From Tomitella cavernea (GTDB taxonomy: Bacteria > Actinomycetota > Actinomycetes > Mycobacteriales > Mycobacteriaceae): a DNA stretch of 37,377 bases. The stretch covers positions 1-37,377 of the forward strand of contig NZ_JAENKO010000044.1 in assembly GCF_016599145.1 (NCBI RefSeq), in the 5' to 3' direction. Shown piece after piece: positions 11,615 to 37,377 of the stretch. Numbering within the stretch: the stretch's first letter is position 1; each line of letters opens with the position of its first letter. A program made the translations under genes and the position numbers. A model generated the notes under the pieces. That model did no database searches. It saw only the letters and a program-made list of their open reading frames with translations, and was not told the origin of the DNA.

Positions 11615-12402
11615 CCGGGCCCCCTTCGTGTCGTCGGTCGTGTTCGGTCCGCCTCCGCCAGCAGGGCGTGGTCGGCCGGGCCCAGTTCCGCGGACTCGAG
11701 CAGTTCCGGGCGCCGCGCCGCCGTGCGTAGCAGAGACTGCTCCCGCCGCCAGCGATCGACCCGCATGTGGTCCCCGGACAGCAGGACCTCCGGCACGTCC
11801 AGGCCCCGCCACGAGTGCGGCCGGGTGTAGCTGGGGCCCTCGAGCAGCCCGTCGGAAAACGAATCATCCTGGTGCGAATGCGCGTTGCCCAGCACGCCGG
11901 GACGCAGCCGGGCCACCGACTCGATCATCACCATGGTGGCGACCTCGCCGCCGATCAGCACGTAGTCGCCGATGGAGACCTCCTCCACCCGCATCCGCCG
12001 CGCGGCGTCGTCGATCACCCGCTGGTCGATGCCCTCGTACCGGCCGCAGGCGAAGACGAGGTGGCGTTCCTTCGCCCACCGCTGCGCTGTCGCCTGGGAG
12101 AACGGCCTGCCCGCGGGGCTGGGCACGACGAGCAGCGCGCCGCCGGGACAGACGTCGTCGAGGGCGGCGCCCCACACGTCCGGCTTCATCACCATGCCGG
12201 GCCCCCCGCCGTACGGCGCATCGTCGACGGTGCGGTGGACGTCGTGGGTCCACTCGCGCAGGTTGTGCACGCGGATCTCGACCAACCCGCGCGCCGACGC
12301 CTTGCCCAGCAGCGACGCGCGCAGGGGCTCGAGGTACTCGGGGAAGATCGTGACGATGTCGAAACGCGCGGGAGGCTCCGCCGGATGCCCGGCGGCCGTC
12401 AC
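11611..12402 (-). CDS. trmD: tRNA (guanine-N1)-methyltransferase TrmD
   Basis: TrmD methylates G37 of tRNAs that read CNN codons, using S-adenosylmethionine, and prevents +1 frameshifting. The 263 residues contain the SPOUT trefoil-knot motifs [11 protein letters not shown] and [22 protein letters not shown] and [18 protein letters not shown], also typical, fix the identity. The chain begins with about 12 extra residues before [10 protein letters not shown]. The start overlaps the rimM stop by four bases and the stop overlaps the tex start by four, so rpsP-khpA-rimM-trmD-tex reads as one operon. Confidence 0.96.
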
Positions 12403-12998
12403 TGCCCGTCCCCCGGCGCGGCATCGGGCGCCGCCGAGTCCGCTTCGGCGAAATCGAGCAGCCCACGCGGCGGGTCCACACGGACGAAACCGTCTGTGAG
12501 GGACACCTCGGTGACGATCGCGGAGACGAACGGGACGAGCACCTCGCCCGGGTCCGCCGGAGCCCCGTCGCCGTGCTGATCGTCGGGTTCGCGCCGGATT
12601 GCGAGAAGTTCGCCCCCGGCCGTGTGCACCACCTCGGTGACGGTGCCCAGGCGTGCGCCGTCCTGCAGCCGTGCTTCAAGGCCCTCGAGTTCGTGATCGT
12701 AGAACTCGTCGGGGTCCGTCGAGGGGGGAAGGTCGGCGCTGTCGACCATGAACAGCGTGCCGCGCAGCGCGTCCGCCGCAGCCCGGTCCGCCACGCCGGC
12801 CAGACGCAGCAGAAGCCGCCCGGCGTGCTCCCGGGCGGCTTCCACCGTGTACTCCTGTGTCGCGGACTCGCGCGGGCGGCGCCCACGCAGCACCGACCCC
12901 ACCGCAAAGCGTTCGTCCGGCGTATCGGTCCGGATCTCGACGGCGAGCTCGCCGCGGATGCCGTGCGACTTGGCGACGCGCCCGATCACAAGCTCCAT
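12399..12998 (-). CDS. rimM: Ribosome maturation factor RimM
   Basis: RimM assists assembly of the 30S head and binds ribosomal protein S19. The 199-residue protein starts [21 protein letters not shown], here given in two parts ([13 protein letters not shown], then IRGELAVE), the standard N-terminus. The PRC-barrel-like C-terminal domain contains [11 protein letters not shown] and ends in [10 protein letters not shown] plus a short Ala/Asp-rich tail. The stop overlaps the trmD start by four bases (GTGA). It lies 93 bases downstream of khpA in the same direction. Confidence 0.96.
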
Positions 12999-25821: not shown

Positions 25822-26261
25822 GAATCCACCTGGATCTCGAGGTCCACCTCGGCGCCCCGCTTGACGGTGCGCCCCACCGTGCACACGCGGTCGACCGCGC
25901 GCTCGACCACCACCAGCAGCCGCTCCCGCGCGTCGGGCGTGAGCTCGCTGAGGTCCAGCTCGAGGACCTCGCTGAGCACCGGGTACCACTCGTTGTCCCG
26001 GTCCGCATCCCCGGACACGCGGACCGTGGCGTCGTAGTCGTCCCCCAGCCGGCGCGAGAGCGGCTTGTCCGAGCTCATCGCCGTGCATCCGGCCAGGGCG
26101 ATCTTGAGCAGCTCGCCCGGGGTGAACACGCCGGGCACGTCCTCGGAACCGATGAGCACCTCGGCCCCCCGTGAACTGCGGCCCGTGTATCGCCTGGTGC
26201 CCGTGCGCTCCACCTGGAGTTCGGTGTGCGCGGGGGCGTCCTGTTCAGTCATGTCCGACAT
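25818..26261 (-). CDS. OsmC/Ohr-family peroxiredoxin-like protein
   Basis: Probable thiol-dependent hydroperoxide reductase of the OsmC/Ohr superfamily (147 residues). Two redox Cys are visible in family positions: ALAGCTAMS near residue 60 and VCTVGRTV near residue 125. The ATG at 26261 has GGAG seven bases upstream; a second ATG three codons later is possible. Homologues sit next to acyP in mycobacteria (Rv2923c). It is the last gene of the conserved block, and everything to its right is accessory apart from an fpg remnant. Confidence 0.9.
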   Translation of the reverse strand: MSDMTEQDAPAHTELQVERTGTRRYTGRSSRGAEVLIGSEDVPGVFTPGELLKIALAGCTAMSSDKPLSRRLGDDYDATVRVSGDADRDNEWYPVLSEVLELDLSELTPDARERLLVVVERAVDRVCTVGRTVKRGAEVDLEIQVDS

Positions 26262-26337
26262 TGTTCCACTCCGGGGCCGTTCCACCGGTGCATGCAGACG
26301 CCGCGGAGGCGAGAACAAAGCCGCGCGTCGTCGGCGG

Positions 26338-27594
26338 TCACCCCTTCCCCGAACCGGCCGGGCGCGTCGCGCGGGCCACAGCGTCCAGGCGCGGCGCGAT
26401 CCCGCCGGCCATCATGGCGATCTCTCGCTCGCGGATACCGTTCGCGCGGGCCGCCTCCTTCCACCCCGTCAGCGCACGTGCAATGAAGCCCATCCGTTCC
26501 CGAGCCTGACCGGGCGTCAGACCGCATTCCTCAGCGAACGCGAGCAGTGCGTCAATCTCATCCGGCAGACCGTCCGCGCCCATGATCGACGTCGACCGGG
26601 TCTGCCACGGGTCCGGGTTGGGATTCACATCGAATGCAGGACTCAGCGTCCAATAACCTCGCTCGGCGAGGAAGCCGTGATTGCGCAGATGATCGTCAGT
26701 GTTCCCCAGCGCCACGGAAGCGACGACGCGGTCGAAGAGCTCGCGGTGGTCCGCCTTCACGGAAAGCGAGAGATCGCGGACGGCCTCGGCGATCTCGGCG
26801 TAGTCGCGACGGTCACCGTCCCACACGCTCAGCGCGGTCATCGCGCTGATGTAGCCGACGCGAAGACCCTCGTCGGTGCGGTCGAATCGCCGCAGCACGA
26901 GCACACTGCGCTCGCCCACTCGCGCGAGCCGTCGCGTCGGTGTCCGGATGCCTGCGGATTCCAGCAGATCCAACGCGGTCGCCTCCCAGGCCATGACATC
27001 CCACTGGTCGCTGCCATGCGGGAACTTCGCGATCGCCAGCGCGCCATCGTCCAGGCGCACGGACGCTTTGGGGCGCGCTCCACCCAAGCCGGTCGTGCCC
27101 GTGTCGAGCAGCTTCTTCACGGCGGCCGCCGGATCCTCGTCCGTGGCGAGCGCGTCGGAGGCGCGCAGCAGCTCCGGGAGCGACACCAGCGGTGGAACAT
27201 CCGACGGTGGGCCGACGAACGCCACGCTGCCTGCGACCCGATACCGCAGATCTCCTTGACGTGTGTCGCCACTGACTCCCAGGAGGAAGTCGAGGTCGTC
27301 GAGACGGCGCGGCACTCGTTGCTCCGCACGGGCGCGGGCACGCTCCGCCTTCTCGATGAGGTTCCGGCCCCAACGGTCGGGGGCACTGTCCGCGAATGCC
27401 CGCACGAGCCCGGGCTGGTGCTGCACCCCCGACACGAGGGGCAGAGCGGGGTCGATACTCGTCCCGTCGTGCGCCAGATAGCCCGGATCGTAGAGGAATG
27501 TGGTGGATATCCGTCCGCGGTGCCTCGTGAAATGCGCCTGGCCCACCACGACCGGTCCTCCCGCCCTGTCGGCGTAGACCTCGACGGTGGTCAT
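26338..27594 (-). CDS. hipA: HipA-type serine/threonine kinase toxin
   Basis: HipA toxins phosphorylate glutamyl-tRNA synthetase or similar targets and induce dormancy; the HipB partner neutralises them. The 418 residues have a HipA N1 subdomain (VEVYADRAGGPVVVGQA) and then the kinase fold. Visible features are the Gly-rich ATP loop GLGGARPKAS (169-178), Lys190 in AIAKF, catalytic Asp300 with Asn305 in NTDDHLRN, and the metal-binding Asp322 in AFDV. These correspond to Asp309, Asn314 and Asp332 of E. coli HipA, so the enzyme looks intact. The ATG at 27594 overlaps the hipB stop (ATGA). The pair lies at the break in synteny after osmC, which suggests horizontal arrival. Confidence 0.92.
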   Translation of the reverse strand: MTTVEVYADRAGGPVVVGQAHFTRHRGRISTTFLYDPGYLAHDGTSIDPALPLVSGVQHQPGLVRAFADSAPDRWGRNLIEKAERARARAEQRVPRRLDDLDFLLGVSGDTRQGDLRYRVAGSVAFVGPPSDVPPLVSLPELLRASDALATDEDPAAAVKKLLDTGTTGLGGARPKASVRLDDGALAIAKFPHGSDQWDVMAWEATALDLLESAGIRTPTRRLARVGERSVLVLRRFDRTDEGLRVGYISAMTALSVWDGDRRDYAEIAEAVRDLSLSVKADHRELFDRVVASVALGNTDDHLRNHGFLAERGYWTLSPAFDVNPNPDPWQTRSTSIMGADGLPDEIDALLAFAEECGLTPGQARERMGFIARALTGWKEAARANGIREREIAMMAGGIAPRLDAVARATRPAGSGKG

Positions 27595-27878
27595 CGTGCG
27601 CGCTTCTTCGCGAGATTGCCCGCCCGTAGCCGACCGATGTCGCTGCCAAGCGGGTCTACCGCCTCGACGACCTGCCCGAGCACGCCGAGGGCGCGAAGCA
27701 CCTGAGCGACGTTGCCGAAGCCCACACCTGCGTTGCCGGATTCGATCTTGCGCAGGGTGTCGCGGGTGATACCGGCGCGCTCCGCCACCTGCTGGGCGGT
27801 GAGCCCCAGCACCATGCGCCAACCACGCACATGCTCGCCGAGCTCCGTGAGTTCACGGTCGATCCGGTATCCAGCCAT
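27591..27878 (-). CDS. hipB: HipB-like Xre-family antitoxin and repressor
   Basis: DNA-binding antitoxin of 95 residues. The helix-turn-helix is clear in LTAQQVAERAGITRDTLRKIESG (LTAQQVAERAGIT and DTLRKIESG), followed by helices and a basic tail. It should bind HipA and repress the hipBA promoter. The ATG at 27878 has AGGAG six bases upstream, and the end overlaps hipA by four bases. Two operator-like repeats lie immediately upstream. Confidence 0.9.
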   Translation of the reverse strand: MAGYRIDRELTELGEHVRGWRMVLGLTAQQVAERAGITRDTLRKIESGNAGVGFGNVAQVLRALGVLGQVVEAVDPLGSDIGRLRAGNLAKKRAR

Positions 27879-27894
27879 GCCACACTCCTGATGC

Positions 27895-27941
27895 TATGAC
27901 GAGGGTAGCAGGCGCAACTGATAGTTATGGCGAGAGTCATA
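27895..27941. promoter_or_regulatory. Candidate hipBA operator repeats
   Basis: TATGACGAGGGT (27895-27906) and TATGGCGAGAGT (27926-27937) match at 10 of 12 bases and are 31 bases apart, three helical turns. The second copy continues into CATA, making TATG-N8-CATA. That is the same layout as the known E. coli HipB site TATCC-N8-GGATA. They end 17 bases before the hipB start on the coding strand. Sequence and position are seen directly; binding is inferred. Confidence 0.6.
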
Positions 27942-27954
27942 TCCGTACCGTCGG

Positions 27955-28195
27955 TCAGAGCCTCACGCACACGGTGTCGAGAACATCCGGCAGGCCCCGC
28001 AGACCCATCGCACATGACCGGCTCGACAGTCCTGAGGAGCCGAGCCGCAACGTGGAGTTGGTGTCTTCCGGGTCCATCTCGACGAGGATGTCGATGCCGA
28101 TGTCGGAGTCGGAGTCGGCGTGCGCGGTGCCACGAGCGACGGAGCCGAGGCGAGTGATACGACCGGAGATTGGCGCTACAGATTCCAGGCAGCGA
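27955..28195 (-). pseudogene. Remnant of an MNT-type nucleotidyltransferase
   Basis: On the minus strand, directly after the fpg stop, a frame reads LGSVARGTAHADSDSD and then IGIDILVEMDPED. This is the GS-x10-DxD core of minimal nucleotidyltransferases (MNT/MntA, often antitoxins of HEPN toxins). There is no start codon and no N-terminal helix before the core. The sequence after it is no longer family-like before the stop at 27955. It therefore looks like a truncated gene. The stretch between it and hipB holds the hipBA operators. Confidence 0.55.
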
Positions 28196-28374
28196 TCAGG
28201 AAAGTTTCCGCTGACACCTCGGGCAGAAGTAGCTCGAGCGGTTCATGAACTGCGCCCGTGCGATCGGCGTGCCGCACCGCTCGCACGGCTCCCCTGCCCG
28301 CCCATAGGCGTTGAGGCTGCGGGAGAAGTATCCCGACTCCACGCCATTGATACGTTGACGTATAGCGAGTCGAA
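28196..28374 (-). pseudogene. fpg: 3' remnant of fpg (formamidopyrimidine-DNA glycosylase), truncated and frameshifted
   Basis: The minus strand encodes [17 protein letters not shown], then [17 protein letters not shown] and [13 protein letters not shown], ending in KLS and a stop at 28196. This is the C-terminal zinc finger of Fpg/MutM with all four Cys. Just upstream, in another frame, FDSLYVNV continues the Fpg sequence. One missing base near 28348-28352 therefore separates the two parts. The upstream 220 or so residues, including the catalytic N-terminus, are absent. In mycobacteria fpg follows the osmC-like gene, so this is probably the native gene, broken when the region to the right was inserted. 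Confidence 0.85.
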
Positions 28375-28416
28375 TGGTCAGTCGAATGGTCAGTCGAATG
28401 GCGATTCAATGGCGAT
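28369..28416. repeat. 12-bp tandem repeat at the broken end of fpg
   Basis: GTCGAATGGTCA occurs twice exactly (28369-28380, 28381-28392). A third copy follows with two changes (28393-28404), then a degenerate fourth (28405-28416). The array begins where fpg homology stops and may have grown from the junction sequence. No gene is visible from here to 28534. Confidence 0.8.
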
Positions 28417-28534
28417 CAGACTCGCGCTCGGACTCCGACGGTGACCGGACACGCTGAGACCTACAGTACCGATCTTGGACCTGAACGCCTCTGACGTCCT
28501 TGAGCCAAGCCCATGAGAGAACACATCCTGGGCC

Positions 28535-28876
28535 TCACTTGGCCGTCGCGCCACCAATTCTGGCCCTCTTCCGCTTCGCTTCGCGCTCCAGAAGGTGCGC
28601 GAGGAAGACCTTCCGGATGGCGCGCTTCTGCTCGTCCGTCAACGGCTGCGCCGTTGCACGAATCTTGCGCACGTGCTCCTTACGTGCGGTAACGCCGGAC
28701 ACATCGTCGAGATCTCGGACTCGAACCCAGGTCGTGAAGACCCAGCGTCCATCGATGTCGCTCGAGGTCAATCGCATCTCGAGCTCACCCTGCTTGACCC
28801 ATCGTCGGATCTTCGAGGTGCTGCAGTGGTAGCGCTCGGCCGCGGCGGCGACGTCGATCCATTCCTCTTCGGGCAT
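28535..28876 (-). CDS. Small helix-turn-helix protein, MerR/excisionase-like
   Basis: A 113-residue basic protein. The N-terminal half, EEWIDVAAAAERYHCSTSKIRRW (EEWIDVAAAAERYH and CSTSKIRRW) with VKQGEL, is a winged helix-turn-helix of the HTH_17/excisionase type. The rest, with DGRWVF and a long charged helix ending in KRKRAR, is probably DNA-binding. I chose the ATG at 28876 because GGAGGAG lies six bases upstream. A longer frame upstream contains no recognisable domain and runs into the divergent gene's promoter. It could be a directionality factor of a mobile element or a local regulator; no integrase is visible. Confidence 0.7.
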   Translation of the reverse strand: MPEEEWIDVAAAAERYHCSTSKIRRWVKQGELEMRLTSSDIDGRWVFTTWVRVRDLDDVSGVTARKEHVRKIRATAQPLTDEQKRAIRKVFLAHLLEREAKRKRARIGGATAK

Positions 28877-28950
28877 CAGGGTCTCCTCCAGATCTCGTGG
28901 GCATCCAGAGAAGGACTCGATGGCTATCACGGCTCCGAACGCATAAATGT

Positions 28951-28972
28951 GACTCATAGTCCGTGGACTCAT
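28951..28972. promoter_or_regulatory. Repeat and palindrome between the divergent regulators
   Basis: GACTCAT occurs at 28951-28957 and 28966-28972, 15 bases apart. Between and overlapping them is the palindrome AGTCC-GT-GGACT (28958-28969). The site lies 28 bases before the Xre start and 75 before the other gene's start, a natural place for an operator. Only position and symmetry support it. Confidence 0.4.
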
Positions 28973-28999
28973 CGTCAGCGTATCGGAATCGTCTAATGC

Positions 29000-29224
29000 A
29001 TGACCATCCCGGCGCATCGCATCGCTTTCGGCGAGCACCTTCGCGATCTGCGCCGCGAGCACGGATGGGCGTCACAGGAGGCCTTCGCCCACCACGTCGG
29101 GCTCGATCGCACCTACATCAGCGGCTTGGAGCGCGGAACCCGCAACCCGACGCTTGATGTCCTCGTCAAGCTCGCCCGAGGCCTCGACGTCACCCCATCG
29201 GATCTGCTCGCGACCGTCGAGTGA
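29000..29224 (+). CDS. Xre-family transcriptional regulator
   Basis: A 74-residue single-domain Xre/Cro protein. The helix-turn-helix runs from GEHLRDLRREHGWASQ through EAFAHHVGLDRTYISGLERG to RNPTLDVLVKLARGLD. It has no other domain. The ATG at 29000 has no obvious Shine-Dalgarno, so the message may be leaderless, which is common in this group. It is divergent from the excisionase-like gene and convergent with the HEPN gene, so it may regulate its neighbours. Small Xre proteins of this kind often accompany restriction and defence loci. Confidence 0.85.
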   Translation: MTIPAHRIAFGEHLRDLRREHGWASQEAFAHHVGLDRTYISGLERGTRNPTLDVLVKLARGLDVTPSDLLATVE

Positions 29225-29324
29225 TCCATAGACGTCGTCAGTCCTTCGCATGGATCGGCAGACCGAAGTGCCGCGCATCTCGCGTAGCCGCCCCCTCCCC
29301 TCCTCATTTCCGAGTAGTACCCAA

Positions 29325-29339
29325 CCTCGGCACGCGAGG
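29325..29339. terminator. Small hairpin between convergent xre and HEPN genes
   Basis: CCTCG-GCACG-CGAGG forms a 5-base stem with a 5-base loop in the 158-base gap between two converging genes. It has no T-tract. It may be a weak shared terminator. Confidence 0.25.
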
Positions 29340-29382
29340 CGAGAGGGTGGCGAGGCGCTCTAGCTGAACGGCGACAAAGCAA

Positions 29383-30597
29383 TCAAGCGCTGGTACGCAC
29401 AGCCGACGACATGAGCCGGTCGGCATAGCCGATGAGGCTCGTGACCAGCATGAGAACCTGCACGCAGTTGCGCTTGCTAAACTGGCGCGAAGAGACGCCG
29501 TGGACGCTCGCGTGGCGCGAGTAGTACCGAGGGACTTCGTCGCCCTTGTGCTTCCAGAACTGCTCGTGGGCGTTCCAGATCGGCAGCCAGACCATGGCCT
29601 CGTGGACGCCCATCTCGTCGATGGCGTCCGGCACGTCCGCGCCCTTCTTCCGATTGGTGATGAGCCGTCGAGCCGCCTGGTCGGGATAGAAGCGGTAGAT
29701 CAGGGTGTCGAGCGTGACCGTGAACATGGCCTGGGCGGAGCGGGCGTGCCCCGCCCGCATCGCGCCGAGGCCGTCGAGCGCGAACCTCAGCTCGTCGCCG
29801 ATCACTGCGCCGTCTACCTGCTCGAGCACGACGGAGCAATCGTCGATGATCGACTTGTAGCAGTCGCCGAGCACCCGTCGGCGAGCCGAGCGGTCTTGTC
29901 CGCGGAGCAGACGCAACGCTGTGCGACCGCGCGGCACCAGATAGAGCGGGATGCCCTCCTGTTCGAGGAACTCGTGCACTTGATGGGCCCTGATCTCGTC
30001 TGCGTGGCCCCTCAGATTTGACGGGAGGAGCGCACGGTTGAACCCCCGCAGCAGTTCCGGGTCGAAAAGCGGCTTCAGGGAGCCGCGCAGCCCATCGAGC
30101 ATCGCGGATTGCTGACTCGAGATCTGCTTGAGCATCGACTCGATCGCTGGGCTGACTCCAACGCCCTTCAGCGCCGGGAAGTCGATCATCGGAGCCGTGA
30201 ACGTCGGGAGGCTCGCCACAATCGACGCCATCTGCGACTGGACCCGCTCGCTGTATGGCTCGAGCGTCTTGTTGACCAGTGGGTCGTAGTCGGGCAGCGC
30301 CGACTTAATCTGCTCCTGGAGGCGTCGGTTCAGCGGCCCCATGACGTCCCGCGCGTACGTCGAGGAATCCGGGAGCATCGCCTTCATCCGCGCTCGGATG
30401 GGCTCGAGTATCTTCGCGATGGCGACGTCCATACCGGGCATCAACGACTGCGCGAACCCTGCCGGCAGTCGGAAGTCGGCAGTGGGCGACGAGCCTGTGT
30501 CTGCCAGCGGAGTATCCGCGCCGTCGACCGATGCTTCTCCGTCCTCGCCCGGCTCCCGCTCGCGCCCCTTCTCGAGTATCTCGTCGTCGTTAGTCAT
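29383..30597 (-). CDS. HEPN-domain protein, putative RNase effector of a two-gene defence module
   Basis: A 404-residue protein I cannot name. Residues 1-45 are acidic and disordered-looking, and 50-200 are amphipathic helices. The C-terminal third resembles HEPN proteins: a helix with AGHARSAQAMFTVTLDTLIY (about 282-301), then SRHASVHGVSSRQFSKRN. The segment R361-HASV-H366 fits the HEPN RX4-6H RNase motif in its common RHxxxHG form. The gene starts five bases after the stop of the GHKL-nuclease gene on the same strand, so the two are co-transcribed. I infer an RNA-cleaving or abortive-infection effector triggered by the upstream ATPase. A non-catalytic adaptor role is possible. Confidence 0.65.
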   Translation of the reverse strand: MTNDDEILEKGREREPGEDGEASVDGADTPLADTGSSPTADFRLPAGFAQSLMPGMDVAIAKILEPIRARMKAMLPDSSTYARDVMGPLNRRLQEQIKSALPDYDPLVNKTLEPYSERVQSQMASIVASLPTFTAPMIDFPALKGVGVSPAIESMLKQISSQQSAMLDGLRGSLKPLFDPELLRGFNRALLPSNLRGHADEIRAHQVHEFLEQEGIPLYLVPRGRTALRLLRGQDRSARRRVLGDCYKSIIDDCSVVLEQVDGAVIGDELRFALDGLGAMRAGHARSAQAMFTVTLDTLIYRFYPDQAARRLITNRKKGADVPDAIDEMGVHEAMVWLPIWNAHEQFWKHKGDEVPRYYSRHASVHGVSSRQFSKRNCVQVLMLVTSLIGYADRLMSSAVRTSA

Positions 30598-30602
30598 TTC
30601 AT

Positions 30603-32645
30603 CTAGCTCGACGGGAGGCCGAGTCGGTCGAAGAACGCCCTGTTGCGCTCCGTGGCCGCGTTGACCAGCCCGTCGAAGCTCATGACCTCGATGTAGGCCT
30701 TCGCCGCATTGTTGTAGCCGAAGTACCCGAGGCCATCGTGAGTGGGACGCAGGTCTGAAATCTCGCAGCGCTCGATCATCTTCTCCGTGAGGTCAGCGAT
30801 GATGTAGCAGAATGCTGGCGGCTCCTGAGCCGGCGGGATCGGTCGCCCCGTCGCGGTCATCACGCCGCCGGCGCGGATTCGCTTCACGTAGTCGAGGCAC
30901 TGCTGGATAGGGTTCTTGGCCTCCGTGGCGTCCTTGCGCATCGGGCGCTTGATCTCGACCACGACGATCGACGGCAGCGGAAGCTTCTCCCCCTCCGCGG
31001 CGAGCACCGGCGCATCGATAAGCCGAGTCGCGAGGATGTCAGGCTCCTTCGTCGACTCGGACCCAGTGACCGGCATGCTCTTGAGCGTCTTGTCGGAGGC
31101 GAGGTAGTCGTGGAACGCGAGCCGCTCGTCAATGATCCACAGGTTCGAGCCATCGGAGGCGACGTCGTTCGACTCGGTGCGCATCGGGACGATCAACGAG
31201 TGGATCGCGTCCTCACGGCTGTACCTACCGTCCCTGTCTGCGCGGATCAGCCGTCCAAGCAGGTCCAGTACCGTGCGGCGACGCGAGACGTACGCGGCCA
31301 GGTCGGACTGGTTGATCTCACTGACCGTCGTGAGGTAGCCGTCGAGCCGCTCCTTGAAGTCGTCCGCAGGCTCCGCCTCAGCCTCAGCGAAGATCTCCTG
31401 CCCCTTCACGAACGCTTCAGACTCGATCTTCTTCAGGTGCTTGTGGAGTTGCAGCTCGAGATCCTGGTCATTGACCGACGGGTCTACCGTGATGCCGCGT
31501 TCCTCGATCTTGGCTAGTACGGGCCGGTACCGCGGGGCTCGCTTGGTCACGAAGTCGTGGACGCGTTGCTTGCCCTGCTCGCGGGCCGACTCGAGGGGGT
31601 CCTTCAGGATCTCCGCCACCTCCTCGAGGACGGCCTCGCGGATATCATCTAGCGAGATGTCGTCGACGAGCGGCTGACCGGATATCCGGTCGCTGATGTC
31701 GAAGGCCGTCCGGTCGGAGCGCACCCGATCATCGAGGAAGTCGGAGGTCAGGTAACACGCGTAGACGAACTCCCCGGAGGCGTCGTCCGCGAGCCTGCCG
31801 TGAAGCCCCGGCACTTTTCCGCTCAGGTTCTCGTCGATGACGACACGGCTCGCCGCGCACCAGTGCAGACGTGGAAAGGAGTTCCGCGCCGTCGCCTTCA
31901 GCCGGAGGTTGAGCATGTCGAACTTGTGGCCCTTGACCTCGATCGTCGACGAAGTCATCGCCGAGTCGACGAACTCGTCCATCAAGCCCGCCAGAGACAC
32001 CAACTCCTCGTCGTCCGTGACCGTCACGACGGGGGCACCTCCGGGGCGGAGGAAGTACCAGATGCAGTGCTCGAAGATCTCTCGCGCGATAGCGTCGACG
32101 CCCTTCGGAGCGTTCTGCTGAAAAGACTTCTTGAAGCCGTCGAGGCTGATGACCGCTCCGGGGCGGGAGAAACCCTCTGCCTCCCCGTTGGGCTCGACCT
32201 CTTGAGCTACAGAGAACCTGAACTGAAGGCCGTGGAGCTTCCCATCGCCGTCCTCGTACGCGCTGCGGACCGACACCTTGTCGAACGCCTTCAGCCAGAG
32301 CAGTCGCCCAACGCCGCGGCAGCCGAGGTCGGCCTTGAAGTCGCTGTCGAGCGTTTCGAAAGAGGACATGTTCCGCGGTGTGAATCCCACACCGTCGTCC
32401 GAGACAGTGAACCCGATAATCGGCTTCTTGGGGGCGCGCCCGGGGCCCGTTGGGCCGAGGTCAAGCTCAGCCTGAGTGTCGCGGCACACTCTCACGTCGA
32501 TCCGGCCTGGATCGTCGGAACCGCCGGGCCGCGCGTCGATCGCCTGTATGGCATTGACGATGGCCTCGAGCAGAGGGAGGAGCGCGTGGCTCTTGGGCAA
32601 GCTCGTGTTCCGGACCCTACCCGCGAGTGATGTCGTGAGTGCCAT
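30603..32645 (-). CDS. GHKL ATPase fused to a PD-(D/E)XK nuclease domain
   Basis: A 680-residue protein with two recognisable parts. The first is a GHKL (Bergerat) ATPase with N-box LLEAIVNAIQAID (Glu27, Asn31), SDDGVGF (Asp84-x-Gly-x-Gly) and GCRGVGRLLW (108-117). The arrangement recalls MutL/MORC-like ATPases, and a transducer-like region and helical linker follow to about 480. The second is a nuclease-like domain with EPDIL (Asp536), VVVEIKRP (Glu564, Lys566) and the helix motif QQCLDY (Q582-x3-Y586). Together they give a PD-(D/E)XK core with QxxxY. I chose the ATG at 32645, preceded by GAGGGAGGGAAGG. The frame stays open upstream into an Xre-like remnant, so a longer product is conceivable. 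It is the first gene of an operon with the HEPN protein. I infer DNA cleavage controlled by ATP-driven dimerisation. Confidence 0.8.
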   Translation of the reverse strand: MALTTSLAGRVRNTSLPKSHALLPLLEAIVNAIQAIDARPGGSDDPGRIDVRVCRDTQAELDLGPTGPGRAPKKPIIGFTVSDDGVGFTPRNMSSFETLDSDFKADLGCRGVGRLLWLKAFDKVSVRSAYEDGDGKLHGLQFRFSVAQEVEPNGEAEGFSRPGAVISLDGFKKSFQQNAPKGVDAIAREIFEHCIWYFLRPGGAPVVTVTDDEELVSLAGLMDEFVDSAMTSSTIEVKGHKFDMLNLRLKATARNSFPRLHWCAASRVVIDENLSGKVPGLHGRLADDASGEFVYACYLTSDFLDDRVRSDRTAFDISDRISGQPLVDDISLDDIREAVLEEVAEILKDPLESAREQGKQRVHDFVTKRAPRYRPVLAKIEERGITVDPSVNDQDLELQLHKHLKKIESEAFVKGQEIFAEAEAEPADDFKERLDGYLTTVSEINQSDLAAYVSRRRTVLDLLGRLIRADRDGRYSREDAIHSLIVPMRTESNDVASDGSNLWIIDERLAFHDYLASDKTLKSMPVTGSESTKEPDILATRLIDAPVLAAEGEKLPLPSIVVVEIKRPMRKDATEAKNPIQQCLDYVKRIRAGGVMTATGRPIPPAQEPPAFCYIIADLTEKMIERCEISDLRPTHDGLGYFGYNNAAKAYIEVMSFDGLVNAATERNRAFFDRLGLPSS

Positions 32646-32908
32646 GGCCTTCCCTCCCTCGACCGTTGATACAACTCTAGCGGCGACCACCGACACGAAG
32701 GCGCGCCCCTGAGGTCGGAGAGACTCGCACAGTCGACCTGTGTCCCTGAGCTCGAGCGTCAAGCCAAGTGCCTGCGCAACCTTCGCAATAGCCTCGGTTG
32801 TCGCGACGTTGTTCACCTCGACCCCCGCGATAGTCGGACGGGGAGCCCGGCCTCATCTCCGAGCTGGACCTGCGACCGCTCCTGTACTGAGCTTCGCACG
32901 ACGTGCAC
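32646..32908 (-). pseudogene. Frameshifted Xre-type regulator upstream of the GHKL gene
   Basis: Reading leftwards from a GTG at 32908, one frame gives QVQLGDEAGLP. After a one-base slip in the GGGG run at 32840-32843, the next frame gives RPTIAGVEVNN and VATTEAIAKVAQALGLTLEL. Joined, they form a typical Xre helix-turn-helix (the usual GLSRPTI needs one more base). The second part has no stop and continues in frame into the GHKL ORF. Either the regulator has decayed and its end has merged with the next gene, or there is a sequencing error in the homopolymer. Confidence 0.6.
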
Positions 32909-32921
32909 TCACCTTCATCAG

Positions 32922-32939
32922 TACAAGCGAACGTTTGTA
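32922..32939. promoter_or_regulatory. Inverted repeat upstream of the arsR-type gene
   Basis: TACAA (32922-32926) and TTGTA (32935-32939) are perfect inverted copies eight bases apart, with AACGTT inside. The repeat ends 34 bases before the ArsR-family start and also lies in the divergent gap towards the Xre remnant. It is a plausible autoregulatory site. Confidence 0.5.
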
Positions 32940-32973
32940 ATAGCTTGGACTTGTTCGAGCAAGGAGGGCTCCA

Positions 32974-33309
32974 ATGCTGTCCGAGACCAAGGTCGACTTT
33001 GACCTAGCACTGCGCGCGCTGGCCGACGTGAACCGACGTGCAATCCTTCGCGTGATTCGCACCAGCCCACGGCCGGTCGGAGTGATTGCGAAGGAGGTCG
33101 AGCTGTCGCAACAGACGACCTCGCACCATCTTGGCGTGCTTCGCAATGCCGGCCTCGCGCTCGGCACTCGCGAGGGCACTCGTCATCTCTACGCGATCGA
33201 CACCGACGGACTGGCGGCGGTGCGCTCGTATCTGGATGACTTCTGGCCCTCGAGATTGGCCGACCTCAAAACCGCCGTCGAGTCGCGACAGGAGGGCCCT
33301 CATGGCTGA
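32974..33309 (+). CDS. ArsR-family winged-helix transcriptional regulator
   Basis: A 111-residue DNA-binding repressor. The winged helix is clear in LADVNRRAILRVIR and VELSQQTTSHHLGVLRNAGL, followed by TREGTRHLYAID. No metal-binding Cys motif is present, so it is not a classical metal sensor. ArsR proteins of this type are usually paired with an SRPBCC protein. The next gene is exactly that, overlapping by eight bases. AGGAGGGC lies just before the ATG. It probably controls its own operon through the inverted repeat upstream. Confidence 0.9.
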   Translation: MLSETKVDFDLALRALADVNRRAILRVIRTSPRPVGVIAKEVELSQQTTSHHLGVLRNAGLALGTREGTRHLYAIDTDGLAAVRSYLDDFWPSRLADLKTAVESRQEGPHG

Positions 33310-33736
33310 GTTCCGAGACTTCATCGACATAGAGGCTCCACCGGAGACAGTGTTCGAGTACCTGATCACGAACGACGGCATGACGGCCTGGATGGGGCAG
33401 TACGCCGACCTTGACCCGACGCCAGGGGGCAAGTTCGCCGTCGACATAGCTGGACACCCCGTACGGGGCAAGTACCTACATGTCGAGCCCCCGAGCCGCG
33501 TGGTGATGAGTTGGGGCTTCGCCGGAAGCGAGGACCTACCAGAGGGATCCTCGACAGTCGAATTCCGCCTCACCCCGATCGGCGGCGGGACTCGAGTCGA
33601 TCTGCGCCATTCCGATCTGCCCGACAGCGAGGTGCGTGGCCACGCCGACGGGTGGGCGAACTTCCTGCCCCGTCTCGCCATCGTCGGAGCCGGCGGCAAC
33701 GCCGGGCCGGACGGCTGGCAGCCGCTCACGGACTGA
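33302..33736 (+). CDS. SRPBCC/AHSA1-domain protein
   Basis: A 144-residue protein of the START/Bet v1-like AHSA1 group. It shows IEAPPETVFEYLI and NDGMTAWMG at the N-terminus, then GGKFAVDI, PPSRVVMSWGF and a C-terminal helix with GWANFLPRLA. These proteins have a hydrophobic pocket, but the ligand is usually unknown. The start at 33302 overlaps the ArsR gene by eight bases. The pair ArsR-SRPBCC is common in actinobacteria. Confidence 0.87.
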   Translation: MAEFRDFIDIEAPPETVFEYLITNDGMTAWMGQYADLDPTPGGKFAVDIAGHPVRGKYLHVEPPSRVVMSWGFAGSEDLPEGSSTVEFRLTPIGGGTRVDLRHSDLPDSEVRGHADGWANFLPRLAIVGAGGNAGPDGWQPLTD

Positions 33737-33777
33737 CCACCCACGCCGCGTCCGCGGCACGAACCAAGGAGAATCCC

Positions 33778-34137
33778 ATGACCCAGGACAATGCGTACGA
33801 CACCGTGCAGAAGTATCACCGCGCTTGGACGAGCGGCGACATCGACACGGCAATGAGCTACGTTGCGGACGACGTTGCCTGCCGAGCTCCCGGCGTCGAT
33901 TTGGACGGCAAGGACGCCTACCGCGGGTTCATCGGCGGCTTCGCCCCGATGCTCACCGGCATCGGAGACATCGCCGAGTTCGTCGACGAAGACCGCGTGG
34001 CACTGTTCTACTACCCGCAGACCATGTCGACCTCCACCACTCCGGCAGCCGAGTTCTTCACCGTCAAGGACGGAAAGATTACCGAGAGCGTGCTCATCTT
34101 CGACCGGCTCTCCTACGGCCCGCCCGAGCAGGCCTGA
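33778..34137 (+). CDS. SnoaL-like/NTF2-fold protein
   Basis: A 119-residue protein with the nuclear-transport-factor-2-like fold: YHRAWTSGDIDTAMSYVADDV at the start (YHRAWTSGDIDTA, then MSYVADDV), GKDAYRGFI, and DGKITESVLIFD at the end. Some relatives are small-molecule isomerases or cyclases, many are uncharacterised, and no catalytic residues can be assigned. AAGGAG lies nine bases before the ATG. It lies 41 bases after the SRPBCC gene in the same direction, so it belongs to the operon. Confidence 0.83.
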   Translation: MTQDNAYDTVQKYHRAWTSGDIDTAMSYVADDVACRAPGVDLDGKDAYRGFIGGFAPMLTGIGDIAEFVDEDRVALFYYPQTMSTSTTPAAEFFTVKDGKITESVLIFDRLSYGPPEQA

Positions 34138-34152
34138 ACCGGAGGGCAGATC

Positions 34153-34500
34153 ATGACTCCCGAACAGACTGTCCTCGTCGAACGCGTCCGTGCCCTGATC
34201 TCCGACGAACCGGTGTTACGTGAGGTCTCTATGTTCGGCGGCAGATCCGTGATGGTGAACGAGAAGATGATCGTCAGCGCCTTGAAAGACGGCGGCCTTC
34301 TCGTCCGGGTCAACGCGGACCAGCACGACGGCCTTCTGGGCCGACCGGGTGCCGTGCAGGCAGAGATGGGGCCAGGCCGCGACATGGGACCCGGCTGGAT
34401 CGAAGTCGCAGCCGACGCGATCAGAGACGACGAGCAGTTGTCGTCCTGGATCGGGATCGCGATGGACTACAACCGGATCGTGACCGGCGGGCACCCATGA
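34153..34500 (+). CDS. TfoX N-terminal-domain protein
   Basis: A 115-residue protein consisting of the TfoX-N domain alone. VREVSMFGG-like residues (LREVSMFGGRSVMVN) and LLVRVNADQHDGLL are diagnostic, and RDMGPGWIEV follows. Full-length TfoX regulates competence in gammaproteobacteria, but stand-alone domains in actinobacteria have unknown roles. GGAGGG lies about eight bases upstream of the ATG. The end overlaps the next gene by four bases (ATGA). Confidence 0.85.
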   Translation: MTPEQTVLVERVRALISDEPVLREVSMFGGRSVMVNEKMIVSALKDGGLLVRVNADQHDGLLGRPGAVQAEMGPGRDMGPGWIEVAADAIRDDEQLSSWIGIAMDYNRIVTGGHP

Positions 34501-35012
34501 GCACGTTCCAGGGTCTTCCACCGGGCCTGTTCACCTTCTTCACAGAGCTGGAGGCCGACAACTCGAAGGCGTTCTGGCAGGCAAACAAGAGCCGCTGGGA
34601 GCGCGACGTCCGCGCGCCGATGCGCACGTTGCTCACCGAGCTCTCCGACGAGTTCGGCGCGTTGCGCATGTTCCGCCCGAACCGGGACGTGCGCTTCTCC
34701 GCGGACAAATCTCCCTACAAGCTTTGGACAGGCGCGACCAGTGAAGCTCAGGCTGTCGGCGGCATCGGCTATTACCTCGAAGCCTCCGCCGAGGGCATCG
34801 TCACTGGCTACAGTGCCATGCTCATGGCCCCGGATCAGTTGCGTCGGTACCGCGCCGCGATAGACTACGCGAGGAGCGGCAACGAGTTCGAGCACCTGAA
34901 CCGCACCCTCGCGGCAGAGTCGCATCCGGTTTCGCATGGTGCTGAGGAACCATTGAAGACCGCGCCGCGGGGCTACTCAACGGACCATCCCCGTATGAGT
35001 GTGCCAGCCTGA
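34497..35012 (+). pseudogene. DUF2461 protein, 3' end truncated by an IS21 element
   Basis: The frame encodes 171 residues, of which the first 166 belong to the DUF2461 family of unknown function. LFTFFTELEADNSKAFW, RFSADKSPYK and LKTAPRGYSTDHPR are typical. Homology stops at DHPR (34994), where a full protein continues for about 40 residues. The last five codons and the stop come from the inserted element. The ATG start overlaps the TfoX-N gene. Truncation after this conserved segment probably destabilises the product. Confidence 0.82.
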
Positions 35013-35058
35013 AGTGGCCCCACCTGACCTGGCAGTGCTGGCCTGAAATGGCCCCACC
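35001..35058. repeat. Left-end transposase-binding repeats of the IS21 element
   Basis: Two 24-base direct copies (35001-35024 and 35035-35058) differ at three positions and share the core GCCTGAA-N-TGGCCCCACC. They start 34 bases apart. Multiple terminal repeats are typical of IS21 ends. Confidence 0.8.
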
Positions 35059-35121
35059 CTCGACCGACCATCTCTAGCCTTTCGTCTTGTCCGACCAAAG
35101 ACATTGACGAGAGGCCAGGGA

Positions 35122-36696
35122 GTGAAGGAACGATCGAGAGTGGAGCAATACGAACGTATCCGACGCGATCGACGCGATAAAGGCATGTCGATCCGCAGAC
35201 TCGCCGAGACCCACAAAGTTCACCGCCGCGTTGTGCGTCAAGCACTCGCCGACGCGGTGCCCCCGCCGCGTAAGTCCCCCGATCGGGTCTCGCCGGCACT
35301 CGGTCCGTACGAGGACACGATCCGCCGGTGGCTGACCGAAGATCTCCAGGCGCCGAAGAAGCAACGCCATACCGCCCGTCGTATCTGGCAGCGGCTACTC
35401 GACGAGGAAGGAGCCGCGGTGGCTGAATCGAGTGTGCGCAACCTCGTCGCCCGCCTGCGGAGCGAGATCGCTGGCGAGCAGGTGCAGGTCATGATCGCCC
35501 AGACCCACGGCCCCGCCGAGGAAGCCGAGGTCGACTTCGGCGAGTTCACCGCGGTGATCGCCGGGACCGCGATGCGTCTGCACATGTTCTGTATGCGCCT
35601 GTCGCATTCGGGCAAGGCCGTGCATGTTGCCTACGCGAACCAGGCCCAGGAGTCGTTCCTCGACGGGCACGTGCGGGCGTTCGAGGCGTTCGGTGGGGTG
35701 CCGACCGGGCAGCTGCGCTACGACAACCTGACCGCGGCGGTGATCCGCGTGGCTCTGGGACGCGAACGGTTCGAGCATCCCCGGTTCATCGCTTTGCGCT
35801 CGCACTACGGCTACGACTCGTTCTACTGCATTCCCGGTATCGACGGGGCGCATGAGAAAGGCGGCGTCGAAGGGGAGATCGGCCGGTTCCGGCGCCGGCA
35901 CCTGACACCGGTGCCCCGTGCCGCATCGTTGGCTGAACTGAACGTCATGCTCGCCGCCGCGGATACCGCCGACGACGACCGGCGCATCGCCGCACGGGCC
36001 GAGACCGTCGGCGCGGCCGCCGCACGCGAGCTCCCGATGCTCGCTGCCCTGCCGGCTGAGCCGTTCGACGTGGCCGCGGCCCTGTCGTGCCGGGTCGATA
36101 CGAAGGCGCGGATCTGCGTGCGCCAGTCGTATTACTCGGTGCCGGCCCGGTATGCCGGGCGGCGGATGTCGGTGCGCCTTGGTGCCGCCATGATCGAAGT
36201 ACTCGATCCCGATGCCGGTGTGACTGCTGGGCGGGTGATCGCCCGGCATACCCGGTCGTTACACAAGGGCAGCGAAGACCTGCTGCTCGATCATTATCTG
36301 GAAGTCCTGCAGCGCAAGCCCGGGGCGCTGGGCGGGTCGACCGCGCTGGCAGCCGCCCGCGCCCGCGGCGTATTCACGTCCTCTCATCAGCGGTTTTGGG
36401 ATGCCGCACGCAAGGCCCTCGGCGACGGGGCCGGTACCCGCGCTCTGATCGAGGTTCTCCTTTTGCACCGCACCATGGCCGCCGAGGTCATTGAGGCGGG
36501 CATGACCGCGGCCAGAAAGGCGGGCCTGTTCACCGCGGAGGTGGTCGCCGTCGAAGCCCGGCACGCCGCCGACGCGGCGCGGCCGGCCGCCCCGGTCGTG
36601 ACGGTCGCCGCTGCGGCGGCCGAAGCCGGTGAACGGCCAGTACCGTCACTGACCGGCTACGACCGGCTCCTCGACGCCGAGCAGGTGAGCGCATGA
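35122..36696 (+). CDS. istA: IS21-family transposase IstA
   Basis: DDE transposase of 524 residues counted from the GTG at 35122. The N-terminus has a helix-turn-helix (GMSIRRLAETHKVHRRVVRQ), and the retroviral-integrase-like core carries Asp138 in AEVDFGEF, Asp201 in RYDNLT and Glu250 in KGGVEGEIGRF. A beta-rich domain (QSYYSVPARYAG) and a C-terminal helical tail follow. GAGG lies seven bases before the GTG; a TTG six codons earlier is an alternative start. All catalytic residues are present, so the protein looks functional. Confidence 0.93.
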   Translation: MKERSRVEQYERIRRDRRDKGMSIRRLAETHKVHRRVVRQALADAVPPPRKSPDRVSPALGPYEDTIRRWLTEDLQAPKKQRHTARRIWQRLLDEEGAAVAESSVRNLVARLRSEIAGEQVQVMIAQTHGPAEEAEVDFGEFTAVIAGTAMRLHMFCMRLSHSGKAVHVAYANQAQESFLDGHVRAFEAFGGVPTGQLRYDNLTAAVIRVALGRERFEHPRFIALRSHYGYDSFYCIPGIDGAHEKGGVEGEIGRFRRRHLTPVPRAASLAELNVMLAAADTADDDRRIAARAETVGAAAARELPMLAALPAEPFDVAAALSCRVDTKARICVRQSYYSVPARYAGRRMSVRLGAAMIEVLDPDAGVTAGRVIARHTRSLHKGSEDLLLDHYLEVLQRKPGALGGSTALAAARARGVFTSSHQRFWDAARKALGDGAGTRALIEVLLLHRTMAAEVIEAGMTAARKAGLFTAEVVAVEARHAADAARPAAPVVTVAAAAAEAGERPVPSLTGYDRLLDAEQVSA

Positions 36697-37253
36697 GTGC
36701 CACCGGAAAAGCTTCAGGGTCGGCGGGTCTGGCGGTGGGCGCGTGGAGCGATGAGGCCGCCGCTGCCGCGATCGCCTCTGCCGCAAAGGTGCTGCGGCTG
36801 CCCACCGTGGGCGCACATGCCCAGGAGCTGGCCGCGGCGGCGGTGAAACAACGCCTGTCGCATCTGGGGTTCCTCGCCGAGGTCCTCACCGCCGAATGCG
36901 ATGAACGCGACGCGCGGATGCGGATCCGCCGGGTGCGCGAAGCGAAGTTCCCGCGCACCAAACGCCTCGCCGATTTCGACGCGGCCCGGCTGCCGGACCT
37001 GCCCGCAGCCGCGCTGGCGCACCTGGCCGGCGGCCGGTGGATCGACAAGGGCGAACCGCTGGTGTTGCTCGGCGACTCGGGCACCGGCAAAACCCATCTG
37101 CTGATCGCGCTGGGCACCGCGGCGGCCGAACAAGGACGCAGAGTGCGGTATGTGACGACCGCCGCACTGGTCAATGAGTTGGTCGAGGCCGCTGACGACC
37201 GGCAGCTCTCCCGTGTGGTCGGCCGCTACGCCCGGCTGGACCTGCTCTGTTGA
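36693..37253 (+). CDS. istB: IS21-family helper ATPase IstB, truncated
   Basis: AAA+ transposition helper related to DnaC. The 186 residues include the N-terminal helical region and Walker A GDSGTGKT (127-134). The protein ends in YARLDLLC, immediately before the expected Walker B Asp-Glu, because a second insertion sequence supplies the stop. Normal IstB has about 250-270 residues, so sensor and arginine-finger parts are lost and the ATPase should be inactive. The ATG overlaps the istA stop by four bases. I expect the rest of istB beyond the second element. Confidence 0.9.
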   Translation: MSATGKASGSAGLAVGAWSDEAAAAAIASAAKVLRLPTVGAHAQELAAAAVKQRLSHLGFLAEVLTAECDERDARMRIRRVREAKFPRTKRLADFDAARLPDLPAAALAHLAGGRWIDKGEPLVLLGDSGTGKTHLLIALGTAAAEQGRRVRYVTTAALVNELVEAADDRQLSRVVGRYARLDLLC

Positions 37254-37377
37254 TGGCGCTCATCGATTTTCCCCAGAGTTGCTCGGTGAAGTTCCCCAGG
37301 GTCGCGAGGCTAGGTTAGCCGAGGTTGGTGCCGGTGGTGGCGCGGCGGATTTCTTCTGCGGCGGCGTGGTGGTTGCG
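37251..37377. mobile_element. Second insertion sequence, left end only
   Basis: From about 37249-37251 the sequence departs from istB. TTCCCCAG occurs at 37269-37276 and 37292-37299, 23 bases apart, which resembles repeated IS21-type terminal sites. A coding frame on the minus strand begins inside and runs off the window. It probably belongs to an IS21-like group different from the first element. Confidence 0.65.
37315..37377 (-). CDS. C-terminal end of a second transposition gene, partial
   Basis: The minus strand encodes NHHAAAEEIRRATTGTNLG and a TAA stop at 37315. This is the tail of a protein whose start lies outside the window. The position, ending about 60 bases inside an element end with repeated sites, fits the last gene of an insertion sequence, perhaps IstB. 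Only 20-21 residues are visible, so the family is not settled. Confidence 0.6.
   Translation of the reverse strand, partial: RNHHAAAEEIRRATTGTNLG

Follow-up and report, generated by a model that had tools for sequence, protein, structure and literature searches.

Do two genes lying five bases apart in Tomitella cavernea make up an undescribed two-gene defence system, or is one of them a nuclease of a known kind that has acquired a companion? The genes, here called A and B, are on the minus strand of contig NZ_JAENKO010000044.1 (37,377 nt; this whole stretch is referred to as the window), where the open reading frame (ORF) list shows both ORFs complete and placed as an earlier note had reported (Table 1). 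We consider it reasonably probable that A is a stand-alone, DNA-targeting GHKL-Shedu (paraMORC3) nuclease and that B is a captured HEPN-like module not needed by A. Gene A adds an actinobacterial member to a known kind of system, and what is new is B together with the swappable slot that it occupies.

Gene A and its known relatives

The GHKL and S5 domains of A occupy approximately residues 1–357, with a helical linker at approximately 332–466 and the nuclease at approximately 478–660 (nuclease residues E478, D536, E564xK566 and Q582). Across 17 aligned diverse members, the GHKL residues E27/N31, D83xG85xG87 and G108/G111/G113 were invariant in 17/17, as were E478, D536 and E564xK566 at the motif and profile level, confirming the proposal that A combines a GHKL ATPase with a PD-(D/E)XK nuclease. 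Pfam HATPase_c matched 14 of these members at E ≤ 1 (window A, E 0.043), and the ATPase part showed a fold match to MORC, Hsp90 and GyrB; the Foldseek and VIA rows mainly cover residues 1–357 and are uninformative about the nuclease part. The nuclease profile of the A family aligned with SduA_C at an hhalign probability of 94 (E 1.5e-7) with the catalytic columns in register, and the probability was 94.2 once a GHKL-bearing row was removed. Pfam SduA_C was matched at E ≤ 1 by 2/17 A members, with a best value of 6.7e-4.

This architecture was described as paraMORC3 in 2008 by Iyer, Abhiman and Aravind (PMC2292703). We assigned A to the paraMORC3 kind by architecture and motifs: it carries GHKL ATP-binding motifs, an S5 domain after GHKL, and a C-terminal restriction-endonuclease (RE)-fold nuclease with E-D-ExK, the nuclease part being identified at the motif and profile level. 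A further likeness lies in the patchy spread, beside restriction-modification (RM) genes or standing alone (PMC2292703). Whereas paraMORC3 is called prevalent in proteobacteria and bacteroidetes in that paper, A represents a large actinobacterial branch. The kinship with paraMORC ATPases that the earlier note had drawn is thus upheld.

The closest functional parallel is VcSduA, a GHKL-type Shedu protein (type I-D) reported in 2025, whose single gene protects against phage, whose protection needs E27 and K557, and whose growth data were read by its authors as direct phage restriction (PMC12137116). VcSduA and A both have an N-terminal GHKL ATPase with a catalytic Glu at residue 27, a middle domain and a C-terminal PD-(D/E)XK nuclease, in VcSduA of the Shedu superfamily and in A probably so; A has E27 and K566. 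They differ in that window A, taken alone, misses Pfam SduA_C and has B directly behind it. With paraMORC3 and VcSduA on record, the claim of an undescribed system fails for the architecture of A. A match to a named system had been given as grounds for abandoning that claim, and such a match applies in part: A is of the known GHKL-Shedu/paraMORC3 kind, and B has no named family.

The PADLOC library did not recognise window A. Tiamat was tried as a home for A and rejected: PADLOC TmtA, which we take to be the Tiamat protein, was matched by 1/17 members (0.0027) and not by window A. A different protein combining GHKL and SduA_C is encoded in L152 (73–2043); tblastn at E ≤ 1 did not match it to A, and its weak profile match is confined to GHKL. 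This suggests that GHKL and a Shedu nuclease came together on more than one occasion.

Gene B and the slot behind gene A

Gene B ends with an RX4H motif, as had been pointed out (RHASVH, residues 361–366). Among 17 aligned divergent B proteins only P192, P222, R361 and H366 were invariant, and the residue following R was always H or N, both polar. HEPN RNases are defined by a catalytic Rx4-6H motif with a polar residue after R (PMC3710099), a pattern that B shares. As the R and H of this motif make up half of the invariant positions, B is likely, though not certain, to be a HEPN RNase. Counting against this call, hhalign gave a probability of 0.3 for B against four Ymh HEPN proteins (the sole HEPN family compared by profile), and no HEPN family was among the Pfam matches of the 17 B members at E ≤ 5. 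B had no family match in Pfam, PHROGs or PADLOC, and nothing better than E 0.05 among NCBIfam and PDB sequences. The combination of GHKL with HEPN is precedented in an RM context, where Ymh HEPN domains are fused to paraMORC ATPases (PMC3710099), whereas B is a separate gene. An open-licence literature search found no paper on a GHKL-nuclease paired with a separate HEPN gene.

Relatives of B sharing its C-terminal domain were found in 14 plasmid records from Streptomyces, Dietzia and Nocardia and in 11/394 genomes of the class, that of the window and 10 others. Their N-termini are variable, with repeats in some; in the distant relatives L170, L171 and L175 the N-terminus contains tandem repeats of the sort seen in fast-evolving sensor regions (WMPPDLLAGFKTQ in L170). 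Beside the distant relatives, inspection by eye found no A and no recurring neighbour. No B was found in phage records by tblastn, and searches of viral contigs starting from exact peptide patterns found no close relatives of B or of a Dietzia B relative.

We then asked how often the two genes occur together. B lay behind A in 4/98 other A loci, from Zhihengliuella (L026), Actinomyces (L028), Rothia (L029) and Brachybacterium (L036), by tblastn with the window protein, a search that a very distant B could escape. The 98 loci, each with the 3' end of A matched on the plus strand, comprise 45 genome-contig loci, 14 plasmid or phage records and 39 viral contigs, and in 11/98 the sequence beyond A is shorter than 1.2 kb (L025, L072, L088, L093, L100, L103, L107, L108, L113, L115, L123). 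Of the paired loci, L026 and L029 are almost the same (98.5% identity in A), L028 has an intact A and a frame-broken B, and in L036 A is split by a 1.7-kb insert and B is cut short. In 394 genomes of the class, seemingly the same draw for both searches, A occurred in 5, B in 11, and the two together in 1, that of the window. With 4/98 loci paired and 1/394 genomes shared, each family can do without the other. The co-occurrence check proposed earlier therefore came out mixed: the pairing recurs in four other named genera and is rare.

In a tree of 53 full-length A proteins (none from viral contigs or L036), window A was sister to that of the B-less locus L001 (support 100/99), and the presence of B required at least two changes, gains or losses. 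Together these indicate that B was linked to A at least twice, or lost and regained, and that the pairing is no single accident. The junction sequences and a 60-nt identity profile place the transition at the end of A: window A DNA follows L001 (82–98% per 60 nt) until about its last 20 nt, and from there on, across the stop codon and the gap into B, the sequence resembles L028 and L036, a placement that rests on few informative sites inside the last codons of A. The relationships of B also disagree with those of A; the window and L028 share 63% of A and 84% of the C-terminal part of B, and L026 and L028 share 90% and 77%, respectively. Because of this disagreement, the comparison indicates that B moved behind a different A lineage, leaving both frames open.

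Other genes were found in the place that B holds. In L001, an A 93% identical to the window's is followed 25 nt behind its stop by UzuA of Uzume (12063–12872; E 2.2e-91), and a 39-aa UzuA scrap sits at the same place in L005. UzuA occupies the same slot as B and is unrelated to it, showing a sub-threshold GIY-YIG match (E 0.0011); Uzume is listed among systems of unknown mechanism (PMC10482375). In Acinetobacter L069 a DUF3800 gene overlaps A. The slot behind A seems to accept different defence genes. Separately, L037 (12416–13390) encodes a DUF3644-like protein approximately 366 nt after A (PADLOC DUF3644, HEC-08, PDC-S64); DUF3644 proteins are presumably HEPN-like. The paired loci L026, L028 and L029, together with L033, have A just behind a conserved gene encoding MEGKDYVM.DGDVVEFR, presumably ychF, an integration spot common to two families.

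Defence setting and competing explanations

The A family is patchy and mobile. We found 49 A loci in genome contigs, up to 93% identical to window A, and further copies in 63 plasmid records, 1 phage record and 40 viral contigs, with A in only 3/101 genomes among relatives (the window's own included). Among these loci, L086, L087 and L099 seem to duplicate L016, L011 and L021, and L007/L051 and L047/L052/L053 are apparently the same contigs. In the phage record (vB_RanS_PJN03, L077), the A relative (26%), annotated as N-acetylmuramoyl-L-alanine amidase and probably misannotated, adjoins an integrase.

These relatives often have defence genes in their surroundings: 9/14 inspected plasmid or phage records carried RM, Shedu, CBASS-like, SIR2, abortive-infection (Abi) or VapC-type/toxin-antitoxin genes near A. 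Genes near A matched 160 PADLOC models at E ≤ 1e-10 and far genes matched 32, where the models are redundant, the count is one of models rather than proteins, and the far set includes RM genes. Both sets were random draws from genes called by our own GC3 (third-codon-position GC content) script: 115/216 genes within 3.5 kb, B left out, and 115/157 genes beyond 6.5 kb. This contrast lends weak support to a defence setting. In the window itself, hipBA, an Xre gene and an insertion sequence (IS) of the IS21 type are all present, and the earlier note was right about these parts of the setting.

We propose the following scheme for A as a stand-alone nuclease. On the model of MutL, gyrase and MORC, the GHKL-S5 module would shut into a dimeric clamp around DNA or a phage complex once ATP is bound, and clamp closure would license the C-terminal nuclease to cut phage DNA. 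B would be a distinct HEPN-like RNase module, picked up into the position immediately after A. It would share a transcript with A, probably through translational coupling, and would add a second, RNA-cutting layer (dormancy or abortive); the activity of A would be independent of B. That no B was found in 94/98 other A loci (11 of the 98 with little sequence beyond A), among them the sister L001, supports A standing alone, and on balance we favour a GHKL-Shedu that works as a single gene, joined by a swappable defence module, over an obligate two-gene system. If right, this would extend GHKL-Shedu into a large actinobacterial branch and draw attention to a HEPN-like family that is uncharacterised and whose variable N-termini look sensor-like; related A genes that stand alone, with B or with UzuA would also serve as a natural experiment on whether single-gene immune nucleases recruit second effectors.

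Several observations weigh against this explanation. The structure model is poor in the nuclease part of A (predicted local distance difference test, pLDDT, below 50 over residues 458–558), window A alone gave no Pfam SduA_C match at E ≤ 1, and the likeness to VcSduA is at the level of domain organisation. RM genes are missing from most A loci, and the frame break in B of L028 could be a sequencing error. Moreover, neither the 5-base spacing nor the two or more gains or losses of B tells a functional partnership from simple capture.

A bolder version, which we hold only tentatively, sees a two-layer operon in which the GHKL-Shedu clamp nuclease would attack phage DNA while the same recognition event would unleash a HEPN RNase of an unnamed actinobacterial family, the region behind A serving as a plug-in slot for B, UzuA or DUF3800, exchanged by recombination near the stop codon of A. 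Less likely than the favoured explanation, in our judgement, is an obligate two-component system of the abortive kind suggested by the earlier note, in which A would sense phage DNA and switch on the B RNase to stop the cell, or B would need restraint by A. The short gap, with no stretch resembling a ribosome-binding site (RBS) before B by eye, the recurrence of the pair in the window and four named genera (two of them near-copies), the arrival of B behind a different A lineage near the stop with both frames open, and the Ymh-paraMORC precedent are all consistent with such a system. Both genes are also under purifying selection, with ratios of nonsynonymous to synonymous substitution rates (dN/dS) of 0.08–0.23 for A and 0.14–0.24 for B in the pairs compared; these ratios and the many loci of A put the reading frames far beyond chance. 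Recurrent capture and purifying selection on B suggest that the arrangement is kept, which leaves the obligate pair some probability. However, most A loci lack B (allowing for the 11 with little sequence beyond A), relatives of B are found where A is missing, UzuA stands in the place of B behind the closest A, and A is intact in L028 where B is broken. We rejected the obligate pair as the favoured explanation.

A third proposal, that A is part of or helper to RM, with B incidental, goes back to the 2008 suggestion that paraMORC proteins loop DNA between recognition and cutting sites (PMC2292703), and we regard it as distinctly unlikely. In an all-against-all comparison of flanking ORFs, with Hsd identities read by us, type I RM clusters lay by A in 8/48 loci (L049 was excluded as a fragment), and annotated plasmid records name type I RM genes adjoining A in L066, L067, L068 and L078. 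In Salinivibrio L067, an hsdR-ATPase-hsdM-hsdS cluster runs straight into A without a Shedu gene. The same cluster in a Vibrio fluvialis plasmid (L068, 4625–8019) forms a single run of hsdR, AAA ATPase, hsdM, hsdS, Shedu and A, in which the Shedu gene (SduA_C match E 1.3e-25) overlaps A by 4 nt; relatives of this Shedu gene were not found in viral contigs. Against a helper role, 40/48 A loci have no type I cluster, no RM gene was recognised among the window ORFs of 26000–37377 read or scanned, and VcSduA acts alone (PMC12137116).

Very improbable is that the genes are degraded island cargo without present function in the strain, or that A serves DNA repair instead of defence: the truncated Xre relic upstream of A, the IS21 element seemingly interrupting a nearby DUF2461 gene, the damaged locus L036 and the mismatch-repair role suggested for versions in non-RM contexts (PMC2292703) point that way, but both ORFs are intact with all active-site residues kept and low dN/dS, and a patchy spread including plasmids and viral contigs is unlike that of repair genes. 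A toxin-antitoxin pair was rejected, there being no small antitoxin and A being a larger enzyme with its own nuclease.

Reading frames and surroundings

Table 1 Features of the locus in the window.
Feature	Coordinates	Strand	Description
Gene A	30603–32645	minus	ATG start, 680 aa; GHKL-S5 ATPase with C-terminal Shedu-like PD-(D/E)XK nuclease
A-B gap	30598–30602	minus	5 bases, A stop to B start; probable module-exchange junction
Gene B	29383–30597	minus	ATG start, 404 aa; variable N-terminus, conserved C-terminal domain with RX4H; probable HEPN RNase
Xre regulator relic	32646–32816	minus	N-terminally truncated, open in frame with A
hipBA	26338–27878
Xre gene	29000–29224
DUF2461 gene	34497–35012		3' end seemingly cut by the IS21-type element at about 34996
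IS21-type element	about 34996–37253		istA/istB

A longer reading of A, from a GTG at 32816, would give 737 aa by adding 57 codons. We rejected this start because the close relatives of A begin at the ATG residue in the alignment (some distant ones start a few residues earlier), because GGAGGG precedes the ATG by eye, and because the extra codons look like the C-terminal end of an Xre gene, which L001 (Enemella evansiae) and L002 (Nonomuraea ceibae) carry intact upstream of A. In both, a 69-aa HTH_3 gene lies 88 nt upstream of A (Pfam E 6.1e-15 and 2.1e-15, respectively); the window relic itself gave no Pfam match. A decayed Xre gene best accounts for the GTG-start reading; the window keeps only the C-terminal part of that gene, in the frame of A. 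A scan of 28800–33100 for promoters of the sigma-70 type and terminators found none.

No tRNA was found in the window. The continuous match to the chromosome of a congener stops near 28063, with a further 166-bp block to 28374, past hipBA; A and B are located in the variable stretch beyond. The IS21-type element is 84% identical to an element elsewhere in a congener.

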